Shown: piece after piece, positions 7,021 through 42,390 of the stretch | Layout of the letters: every line of letters starts with the position of its first letter | How positions within the stretch are numbered: position 1 is the first letter of the stretch | Assembly (NCBI GenBank): GCA_017467905.1 | Contig: JAFUKD010000036.1 | Coordinates: 1-43,800 of the forward strand | DNA: 43,800 nt | Source: Phascolarctobacterium sp. | GTDB lineage: Bacteria > Bacillota > Negativicutes > Acidaminococcales > Acidaminococcaceae | Direction: 5' to 3' | Made by a program: the position numbers and the translations under genes | Notes under the pieces: model-generated | The model's input: only the letters and a program-made list of their open reading frames with translations | What the model was told of the DNA's origin: nothing | Database searches by the model: none

Positions 7021-7106
7021 GGTTATTTGGCAGGCGTCGCCGCTCCTGCATCTCTTTTGACCCATAGGGTGCGTGGTTGCAACGTAATTTACCACCTCAA
7101 ATAACC
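7021..7106 (-). ncRNA. unassigned structured RNA (multi-branch)
   Basis: GGTTATTTG at the minus-strand 5' end (7098-7106) pairs with CAAATAACC (7021-7029), closing about 86 bases. Inside are three hairpins: GTGGT/ACCAC (7091-7095 with 7073-7077), ACCC/GGGT (7060-7063 with 7067-7070), and GCAGG/CCTGC (7045-7049 with 7030-7034) capped by a GCGA tetraloop. AACG/CGTT can extend the outer stem. A promoter at 7126-7154 and a terminator at 6966-6996 would give an RNA of about 150 bases. It matches no riboswitch, tRNA, 6S or SRP consensus that I know. Confidence 0.55.
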
Positions 7107-20548: not shown

Positions 20549-20686
20549 TAAAAAAACTCTTTCCGAGGAAAGAGCGCGCCTGCTTTCCTCTCATCTTTCA
20601 AGATAATCTTGCAGGATTTAGCACCATAGCAAAAGCCTGGTTGCCGGACGTCATTGGGCCTGTTCCCTCAGCCACTCTTGATAAGA
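20549..20686 (-). promoter_or_regulatory. SAM-I (S-box) riboswitch with terminator
   Basis: On the minus strand, P1 CTCTTATC/GATGAGAG encloses GGCTGAGGGAACAGGCCC, ATGACGTCCGGCAACC and GGTGCTAAATCC, which are S-box core motifs. The expression platform terminator CTCTTTCC-TC-GGAAAGAG plus seven T ends at 20549. When SAM is high, metQ should be shut off. Confidence 0.95.
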
Positions 20687-20706
20687 GCGTGTCTTTAATT
20701 GAAGAT

Positions 20707-39992: not shown

Positions 39993-40027
39993 AAAAATCA
40001 GGAAGACACACCATCTTCCTGATTTTC
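39993..40027 (-). terminator. terminator after the Cas9-like gene
   Basis: On the minus strand, AAAATCAGGAAGA pairs perfectly with TCTTCCTGATTTT around a TGGTGTG loop. It is downstream of the two repeat-like units and can also act on the plus strand. Confidence 0.9.
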
Positions 40028-40035
40028 ATCATAAA

Positions 40036-40072
40036 CTTCTAAGTTCATCAATATCCAACAAAGGACTAAAAC
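40036..40072 (-). repeat. CRISPR-repeat-like unit B
   Basis: On the minus strand this 37-base unit begins GTTTTAGTCCTTTG and continues TTGGATATTGATGAACTTAG. The opening ten bases equal the start of type II-C repeats such as that of Campylobacter jejuni. The TGTTGGATATTGAT core is identical to unit A, 49 bases away. It is not a standard array: only two units, diverged, with a gap of about 12 bases instead of about 30. Confidence 0.5.
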
Positions 40073-40084
40073 AAATAAATATAT

Positions 40085-40120
40085 TGCATAAGCTTATCAA
40101 TATCCAACAGAGATTATGCA
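40085..40120 (-). repeat. CRISPR-repeat-like unit A (diverged)
   Basis: It shares TGTTGGATATTGAT with unit B and TAATC/TAGTC just before it, with one gap. It is bounded by TGCATAA and TTATGCA, so the unit can also fold as a hairpin; an inner ATAAGCTTAT palindrome offers an alternative fold. It begins nine bases after the Cas9-like stop codon. Confidence 0.45.
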
Positions 40121-40128
40121 TTACACCA

Positions 40129-42378
40129 CTACTTTTCTTCCAACAGCGTTAGGGGTTTAAAGCTTTTTACTTCTCCACCAAGCTTTCCAAGAACATCTAC
40201 ATAATATTTTTTGAAAACATCTTTACGCGTTACATAATAAGCAATGTCTTTATCACCAGTAATGCTTCTAACATTTAGTAAGCTTCTCGTAATAGCCCTA
40301 ACACTTCTATACCATCCCTCAAACTTCAAATTACCATTATCATCAAAAATTCTAAGGTAATCATTGGTAAAAAGGTACATCACATGTTCCCGATAGTTTT
40401 TCGGATAAGGAATATTTAAATATAATTTTTTATCCTGCTTTTTTAAATCCACATAACGTATTCCACGAAGCACTGTCCTGTTATCGTTATCCTTGTAAAT
40501 TTCTACGCAGTAATATTTATTGGCACTCAATACATTCTCATTTCCACGAGCATCAAGCTTAACAATTGAAGAATCCTTACACTTAGACTTAGGAACAGGA
40601 TTATCATCTGTAAGCTTACCCTGGAACTTTTTATTTTGTTTATAACTTATCAAAGGTTGTCCATCGTAACCTTCACACATCTCGCCATTAGACCATGCCT
40701 TATATATTTTGGTAGCAATATTACTTTTTGCCACACGCACATTCCTTTCGCAAGCTTCGTCAAACCAAAGATTACTTTCTAAATAATTAGCAATGTATCT
40801 GTTAATAAAATTACCGGCTGCTATATTTATATAACGCGGAGACCCATACCTTCCAATAATGGCATTAATAACCTTGCGAGTTTCGTTGATAGTTTTAAAC
40901 ATAACAACATCATGCATTATTTCTTCATCAACATTTTTGGTTAAAGCCGGCAAAGTTTTATGCTTGTGTTCAGCTTGGGACTTCACCTTATTGTAAGCCA
41001 AACGTCTTTCCCGAAGTAGCCTTGCTTTAAAAGTGCAATAGTTTTCTCCTTCCATAAAAGCATTGATTGCTTCTGTCATATAACGTTCGCCAACATTAAC
41101 AGTACCACCAAAATTACTATAAAGCAGTTTTTGACAAAGCTGTTCATTCCAGCCTGCCTCTTTTAAAACTTTATTCCTCCGTTTAGGAGTAACATTTTCA
41201 GAAAGTAAAAGGCTTAACTTTTGCAGTTTGGAAGGACACTCTAAAACAAATCTCTCTCCTGAAATAAACTCCTGATAATTATAACCACTTGTATCTAATG
41301 CACTCTTTAATATTTTTAAAGTTTTAAGCGTATCATTAAGCTTTACCTTCTCATTACCGCTTACTATTGATATCCCAAAACGTTTTAAGATTGCACCTAA
41401 CCATTTTTCTGAAACCTTTGCGTTTAACAAAGATTCCTTTAAAATTACACGAGCAACATCTCGCGGCAATCTAACAGTACCGCCTTCCATATCGACAAAT
41501 TTATACCTCGATAATCTATTAATCAAAATAAACACATCTGCCAGCACAGTACTCTTAAAGCCACGCTTTTCTTCTTTATAAAATCTACACTTACCAACAG
41601 AATCTAAATACCCCATAAATTTACGCGGCTTATCATTTTCAGTACCAGGTCCTGTTTCAAAATCTCGTTGGGCAAAAACAATCCTATCGCACAAGAAATT
41701 AATATTACCTTCCGTAAGTTGTGGGTAATATTCTGCCTGAACATGTAGAATATCTAAAAGTTCCTTCCTAATATATGCACGCTTAATCAAAACATACCTA
41801 TCATTATTTTTGTGGTTGTGATAATCAGGAAAGCTTGTCGCAGTCTTAAAAGCTTCATCATTTAAAACCATATCCGCAACGCTACGATAGTTACTATTAC
41901 TAAAGATACGTTCAAATTCTGCCAAGCCAGCTTTTACTAACCCTGCGTCTTTAGAACTAATTTCTTCATTATAATAGTCACTGTAACCACGATGATTACA
42001 AATGTGAATAATACAATCGGTAAGTTCTTCCGCAGTAAGCTTTTCAGTTAACCCTTTCAACCGAAGGAAAAAAATATTTTGATTACCATTCTTCTCCTGC
42101 CATAGCCTTAAAGCAGCATCAGTAATCAAACCAATCTTTTGCAAAAAGCTTTTAACTCTATCCTTGCGATGAGCACGACGGCGAACCAACCTTCTTAAAT
42201 TGCGGTACATCCTGCGTTCTTGGTTTTTCCTTGTTTTGCCGTCAGCAATTTTCCCAGAAGCAAAGAACCTTATCCCGGCATCCTCAACCTGTACATTATC
42301 TTCACCAGTTTGCAAGGCTACGGCAAAGCCAACATAACCAATACCAATATCTAAATCGATACCATATTTTCTTGTCAT
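40129..42378 (-). CDS. type II-C Cas9 homologue lacking HNH and RuvC-III (predicted nuclease-dead)
   Basis: 749 residues from the second ATG (42378), six bases after GGGGG; type II-C Cas9 proteins are usually about 1000 or more. RuvC-I is GIDLDIGIGYVGFAV with Asp10. The bridge helix (about 47-81) has RRMYRNLRRLVRRRAHRKDR. REC-type text follows (HICNHRGY, IVFAQRDFETGPG, GKCRFYKEEKRG). RuvC-II (about 514-522) reads PRYINIAAGN, with Ala for the catalytic Glu. KIYKAWSNGEMCEGYDGQPL matches the lead-in to HNH, but after about residue 581 the sequence jumps to WED/PI text ending VFKKYYVDVLGKLG. No HNH His/Asn core and no HHxxDA RuvC-III motif are found. No cas1, cas2 or full array adjoins. The gene is AT-richer than its neighbours. 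Confidence 0.88.
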   Translation of the reverse strand: MTRKYGIDLDIGIGYVGFAVALQTGEDNVQVEDAGIRFFASGKIADGKTRKNQERRMYRNLRRLVRRRAHRKDRVKSFLQKIGLITDAALRLWQEKNGNQNIFFLRLKGLTEKLTAEELTDCIIHICNHRGYSDYYNEEISSKDAGLVKAGLAEFERIFSNSNYRSVADMVLNDEAFKTATSFPDYHNHKNNDRYVLIKRAYIRKELLDILHVQAEYYPQLTEGNINFLCDRIVFAQRDFETGPGTENDKPRKFMGYLDSVGKCRFYKEEKRGFKSTVLADVFILINRLSRYKFVDMEGGTVRLPRDVARVILKESLLNAKVSEKWLGAILKRFGISIVSGNEKVKLNDTLKTLKILKSALDTSGYNYQEFISGERFVLECPSKLQKLSLLLSENVTPKRRNKVLKEAGWNEQLCQKLLYSNFGGTVNVGERYMTEAINAFMEGENYCTFKARLLRERRLAYNKVKSQAEHKHKTLPALTKNVDEEIMHDVVMFKTINETRKVINAIIGRYGSPRYINIAAGNFINRYIANYLESNLWFDEACERNVRVAKSNIATKIYKAWSNGEMCEGYDGQPLISYKQNKKFQGKLTDDNPVPKSKCKDSSIVKLDARGNENVLSANKYYCVEIYKDNDNRTVLRGIRYVDLKKQDKKLYLNIPYPKNYREHVMYLFTNDYLRIFDDNGNLKFEGWYRSVRAITRSLLNVRSITGDKDIAYYVTRKDVFKKYYVDVLGKLGGEVKSFKPLTLLEEK

Positions 42379-42390
42379 TGCCATCCCCCA

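Follow-up and report, generated by a model that had tools for sequence, protein, structure and literature searches.

Identification of a Cas9 homologue that lacks its nuclease parts

The stretch of DNA analysed here (the window, 43,800 nucleotides) comes from a gut bacterium related to Phascolarctobacterium and carries, on its minus strand, the gene for a compact Cas9 homologue, mini-Cas9 W, followed by a short array of clustered regularly interspaced short palindromic repeats (CRISPR). The gene had been described in an earlier note, made from the sequence alone, as a naturally nuclease-dead type II-C Cas9 without HNH. The features of the locus are listed below, with the analyses behind them in brackets; dN/dS is the ratio of nonsynonymous to synonymous substitution, PAM the protospacer-adjacent motif, and tracrRNA the trans-activating CRISPR RNA.

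40129..42384, minus strand: mini-Cas9 gene W, HNH and RuvC-III missing (open reading frame (ORF) list, profile search, alignment, Pfam, PADLOC, dN/dS)
42349..42351, minus strand: retained RuvC-I Asp, residue 12, or residue 10 from the second ATG (alignment with full-length type II-C Cas9)
40819..40821, minus strand: RuvC-II Glu replaced by Ala, residue 522, with Ala also in the sister orthologue G3a (alignment)
40129..40653, minus strand: WED/PI-like C-terminal part, beta-rich in the structure model (alignment, windowed dN/dS, AlphaFold2)
40086..40112, minus strand: mini-array repeat 1 (R1), 5' part lost, pairing with anti-repeat 1 encoded elsewhere (G000 C14, L007)
40073..40085, minus strand: single spacer AATATATTTATTT, the predicted 3' part of the guide, its PAM-proximal end adjoining R2
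40037..40072, minus strand: mini-array repeat 2 (R2), full 36 nt, GTTTTAGTCCTTTGTTGGATATTGATGAACTTAGAA, pairing with tracrRNA anti-repeat 2
39994..40026, minus strand: 13-bp hairpin followed by a T-run, a possible terminator of the mini-array

The frame of W is free of internal stop codons and encodes 751 amino acids, or the 749 codons previously reported if translation starts at the second ATG at 42378. The protein matched the NCBIfam profile TIGR01865 (cas_Csn1) with 254 bits over residues 9-521, against a cut-off of 100 bits, and PADLOC also called it Cas9. Judged from this family match and from its phylogenetic placement, W is a type II-C Cas9 by descent. Alignment with full-length type II-C Cas9 proteins confirmed that the RuvC-I aspartate (Asp10 in the earlier note) and the Arg-rich bridge helix are retained, and located the exchange of the RuvC-II glutamate at exactly the codon proposed, the context INIEVAN of full-length Cas9 reading INIAAGN in W. 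HNH and RuvC-III are indeed absent, but there are two separate losses, and one boundary had been misplaced. The first loss, of L1-HNH-L2, lies between residues ~525 and 526 (~40809) and is followed by the post-HNH motif FINRYIANYL. The second removed RuvC-III and the stretch beyond it, at residues ~568-577 (~40653-40684), and its junction is the CEGYDGQPL site that had been taken for the HNH lead-in. Both full-length controls matched the Pfam families HNH_4 and RuvC_III, whereas the five mini-Cas9 proteins described below matched neither. W lacks the HNH and RuvC nuclease sites of a functional type II-C Cas9.

An AlphaFold2 model of W, built on an eight-sequence alignment (predicted local distance difference test (pLDDT) 65, predicted template-modelling score (pTM) 0.35), contained a helical lobe and a long bridge helix, together with RuvC-like strands and a C-terminal part rich in beta structure. 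Foldseek placed Cas9 structures on top, the first being CjCas9 (5x2h, E 4.6e-26, TM ~0.44). The model supports descent from Cas9 and is too weak for details.

Mini-Cas9 proteins form a conserved family in two species

The genome of the window contains three mini-Cas9 genes, W, C14 (812 aa), and C36 (787 aa), and the sister species Phascolarctobacterium sp. RGIG3958 contains two, G3a and G3b, the orthologues of W and C36, respectively. G3a (752 aa) is 79% identical to W, has the same deletions and the same Glu to Ala exchange, and lies at the same locus, between priA and rmlB. In both genomes, the C36 type adjoins rpsB on one side and has rmlB on the other. In the alignment, C36 and G3b have exchanged the RuvC-I Asp for Glu and the RuvC-II Glu for Gly, and in C14 the RuvC-III motif HHAxDA has become LRAVNA. 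The catalytic residues disappeared by different routes in each paralogue, while the remainder of the protein was kept.

In a phylogenetic tree, the five mini-Cas9s formed one clade (support 100/100) beside the full-length Cas9 of Phascolarctobacterium sp. ET69. This Cas9 and that of a related metagenome-assembled genome (MAG) are the closest full-length relatives, and identity to the ET69 type is 50-52%. Two of the four sampled genomes of the genus gave no match to the mini-Cas9 protein; in these two, priA is preceded by a gene that reads as glycyl-tRNA synthetase. A scan that took one genome from each of 84,980 species and started from short peptide patterns returned only full-length relatives beyond the known mini-Cas9s. 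No relatives were found in viral contigs, a single distant match was found in phage records, and plasmids gave distant matches only. The genome of the window, which was covered by pattern searches and individual stretches, also carries a separate canonical type II-C system with a 1104-aa Cas9 and a 16-copy array of an unrelated repeat; the ORFs that follow this Cas9 read as cas1 and cas2 from sequence and position.

The dN/dS was 0.20 for the W/G3a pair (dN 0.134, dS 0.666) and 0.19 for C36/G3b (dN 0.044, dS 0.235); the comparison gene priA gave dN 0.046 and dS 0.557 for the W pair. In the C-terminal part of W, windowed dN/dS was 0.06 for codons 601-700 and 0.24 for the last 52. Purifying selection most likely persisted on the RNA-binding lobe, the bridge helix, and the WED/PI region. 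Since G3a shares the deletions, the Glu to Ala exchange, and the open frame, at a dN/dS of 0.20, a strain deletion or assembly error is ruled out. An assembly artefact was also rejected on the ground that mini-Cas9 occurs at three loci and in a second species. The sister genome showed neither an intact HNH/RuvC-III nor an orthologue riddled with stop codons, the two outcomes named beforehand as speaking for mere deletion or decay, and the proposal that cleavage was lost under continued selection has held up. The parts for guide and DNA binding were probably retained under that selection.

One-spacer mini-arrays and a single tracrRNA locus

The mini-arrays, the tracrRNA, and the paralogues had all been overlooked in the earlier note. 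A degenerate CRISPR mini-array with two repeats and one spacer lies 7-18 nt past the stop codon of each mini-Cas9 gene. It consists of an R1 without its 5' part, a spacer of 13-19 nt that in all five cases ends in TATTTATT followed by T or A, and a full R2. The same repeat makes up an ordinary array in ET69, where it lies downstream of both cas9 and a cas1-like gene. With up to three mismatches allowed, the repeat core was found eight times in the genome of the window (twice in each of three arrays and twice in the tracrRNA), six times in the sister genome (twice in each of two arrays and twice in the tracrRNA), and not at all in the two genus members without mini-Cas9 or with a reversed-pattern control. 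These counts therefore amount to a single tracrRNA locus per genome and one mini-array for every mini-Cas9, with no further array of this repeat. The ORF lists showed no cas1 or cas2 beside the mini-Cas9 genes, and a multi-spacer array with their repeat core was likewise not found, so that these loci lack the components of adaptive immunity. The non-coding mini-arrays have kept 82-93% identity between paralogues that approach saturation at their synonymous sites; gene conversion could be the source of some of the identity between the C14 and C36 mini-arrays.

Upstream of the ET69 cas9, C14, and G3b, and divergent from them, lies a tracrRNA-like region that comprises two anti-repeats, a nexus-like part, and a terminator-like hairpin. 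The C14 and G3b loci have the promoter TTGACA-17-TAGAAT, and their tracrRNA regions are 95% identical. Each genome with mini-Cas9 has one tracrRNA locus with an anti-repeat that matches the repeat, available to W in trans only. In full-length relatives (L060/L059, L024), the tracrRNA upstream of cas9 likewise has two tandem anti-repeats. Also, a stretch of ~410 nt upstream of C14 recurs upstream of G3a with 95.6% identity.

Within each genome, R1 and anti-repeat 1 gave calculated duplex energies of -37 to -47 kcal/mol, and R2 and anti-repeat 2 gave -45 to -49 kcal/mol, the values varying with the stretch taken. Crossed pairs gave -31 to -35 kcal/mol, with one exception of -40.6, and the ET69 repeat paired equally (-40) with either anti-repeat. 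The two species differ on both sides of the R2/anti-repeat 2 duplex, CCUUUG with CAAAGG in one corresponding to CCCUUG with CAAGGG in the other (U-A to C-G), and W in its own genome represents the G-U intermediate of this switch. Taken together, the specific pairing, the two-sided change, and the identity of the mini-arrays argue that pairing between CRISPR RNA (crRNA) and tracrRNA is still selected.

A probable guide-directed, non-cleaving function and its alternatives

The missing nuclease parts, orthology, selection, tracrRNA, mini-arrays, and co-varying pairing are established by computation. Because the guide-RNA loci are preserved and the repeats co-vary, mini-Cas9 is likely an RNA-guided binding protein, one of the two possibilities that the earlier note had left, and because the guide is fixed and adaptation genes are absent beside mini-Cas9, it is unlikely to confer immunity and likely to control transcription. 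We consider it probable that Cas9 was exapted here to bind DNA under the direction of hard-wired guides without cleaving it, most likely as a regulator of transcription; RNA binding, DNA binding, and regulation by mini-Cas9 are predicted from the sequences. There is an even chance, in our estimate, that this chromosomal nuclease-null family, with several copies per genome, a one-spacer array for each, and a shared tracrRNA, constitutes a Cas9-based endogenous gene-control network in which the two repeat/anti-repeat pairs have specialised.

Such a system may have started with the domestication of an ET69-type II-C CRISPR-Cas9 in a Phascolarctobacterium lineage. HNH would have been lost first, the RuvC site would then have eroded differently in each copy, and next cas1 and cas2 would have disappeared along with most of the array, and the gene been placed at three loci. 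Each mini-array would yield one fixed crRNA, and the single tracrRNA locus (beside C14 in the genome of the window) would serve every copy in trans. The crRNA would pair with this tracrRNA and load into mini-Cas9, and the complex would then open an R-loop at the site given by the guide, leave the DNA uncut, and act by occupying it, the most likely outcome being repression of transcription at host promoters.

The target search did not strengthen this proposal. Seed-like sites in the genome of the window were not enriched (53 versus 47 with reversed-pattern controls), near-guide matches lay mostly in coding sequence, and the search yielded no target. Other points that weigh against regulation by mini-Cas9 are that expression and processing of the guide RNAs are deduced from sequence, that W lacks its own tracrRNA and would depend on another locus, that the sample comprises two genomes, one of them a fragmented MAG, and that the AlphaFold2 model is of only moderate quality. 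Exact non-self matches of the W guide AATATATTTATTT occurred only in the purF coding sequence and were taken as chance. The same guide matches 12 of 13 positions in the repeated leader of a multi-copy surface-protein-like family (L053-L057, L101-L129; e.g. G000 C8:15447 and C12:173417), several members of which lie at contig ends; the 18-nt core of this leader, GAAGCTTTGTAATAAATA, has 10 exact copies in the genome of the window and six in the sister genome. The leader was rejected as target, as genus members that lack mini-Cas9 have it too, the guide of the sister species fits it worse, and the mismatch is PAM-proximal. Matches of the C36 and G3b guides were mostly coding and not orthologous. 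The best candidates, this leader and the tracrRNA promoter of full-length relatives, are weak.

The latter promoter bears on an alternative that we regard as unlikely, namely that the guide only represses the tracrRNA or cas promoter of its own system, as tracr-L does in type II-A. The -10/start region of the tracrRNA in full-length ET69 and L059 contains TTTGTATTTATTT, which matches the end of the C36 guide over 12 nt (2/500 and 1/500 shuffles, uncorrected for ~40 comparisons) and also matches the C14 guide at its end, GTATTTATTT. However, this similarity could stem from an origin of the mini-array in the tracrRNA region, and the present tracrRNA promoters of both mini-Cas9 genomes match no guide, which leaves autoregulation through them unsupported. 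Very unlikely, in our view, is a binding-only role in defence or counter-defence, with the complex blocking mobile elements or competing against another Cas9. Some copies do lie near toxin-antitoxin-like genes, G3b lies near a protein that resembles, below the cut-off, an anti-phage dCTP deaminase family, and for a half-dead Cas9 of phages (II-C2) a role as anti-CRISPR has been proposed (PMC12669027). Yet the mini-Cas9 loci have no adjoining adaptation genes, no spacer diversity, and one short guide with an end common to paralogues and species, and competition for tracrRNA is unlikely because the canonical Cas9 system of the host has an unrelated repeat. The least probable account is that the HNH-deleted genes and array leftovers are a functionless CRISPR remnant heading for loss. 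The domain losses, the degenerate R1, the missing adaptation genes, and the two of four genus genomes without mini-Cas9 would fit such decay, but not five open frames in two species at shared loci, a dN/dS of ~0.2 since the species split, a conserved tracrRNA, and compensatory repeat/anti-repeat changes.

Relation to known systems

Few laboratory tools are used as widely as catalytically dead Cas9 (dCas9), which is obtained by mutation of the two nuclease sites. Natural nuclease-dead relatives have been described for TnpB and Cas12. In the open-licence literature, preprints excluded, we found no described Cas9 lineage that has lost both nuclease sites and kept its guide machinery. The closest homologue, the ET69-type II-C CRISPR-Cas9 (L060/L023), shares with the mini-Cas9s the repeat family and the two-anti-repeat tracrRNA upstream of cas9, but has 1050 aa, HNH and RuvC-III, a cas1-like gene, a normal array, and a repeat that pairs equally with both anti-repeats. 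The sections consulted of the 2025 classification (PMC12669027) describe no Cas9 with both sites lost; they include phage II-C2 Cas9, in which RuvC is dead and HNH apparently active. That protein is also a natural Cas9 with a lost nuclease site, whereas the mini-Cas9s have no HNH and a broken RuvC, are chromosomal (W at the priA/rmlB locus), and occur in several copies.

TldR proteins are nuclease-dead, TnpB-derived, RNA-guided transcription factors (PMC13418256). The mini-Cas9s would work alike, with natural loss of cleavage, a fixed guide, and regulation by binding only, but TldR descends from TnpB and has a single guide RNA and a known target, whereas the mini-Cas9s have a tracrRNA and a crRNA mini-array and, by sequence and tree, belong with Cas9 rather than with the TldR family. 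In tracr-L repression, Cas9 with a guide of short complementarity binds DNA and represses it uncut (PMC11417352), and FnoCas9-scaRNA represses likewise without cutting through short complementarity (Ratner et al. 2019, as cited in PMC13431127). In both cases this is a second job of a full, cleavage-competent Cas9, whereas mini-Cas9 is predicted to be unable to cut. The engineered small dead SaCas9, sdCas9 (PDB 8ywh, Foldseek rank 7), is also a compact dead Cas9, but man-made, unlike the natural and conserved mini-Cas9s. If our reading is true, Cas9 has been exapted from immunity to a binding-only function, and W is a compact (751 aa) natural dCas9. The fixed guides, the one shared tracrRNA, and the three proteins in one genome would then make concrete tests possible.

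Other features of the loci and the window

Surface-glycan genes border all three loci (rmlB, glycosyltransferase-like, and UDP-galactopyranose mutase genes); this offers a lead but does not amount to a test. Upstream of C14, L007:11036-11431 (+) and L007:11704-12297 (+) were read by eye as a HicB-type antitoxin and a ParE-like toxin. The deaminase-like protein near G3b (L022:13144-15567 (-), 807 aa) scored 355 bits against a cut-off of 400. Elsewhere in the window, we detected an S-adenosylmethionine (SAM) riboswitch aptamer (RF00162, 83 bits, 20588-20687, minus strand) and a skipping-rope RNA (RF02924, 66.9 bits, 7022-7105, minus strand).
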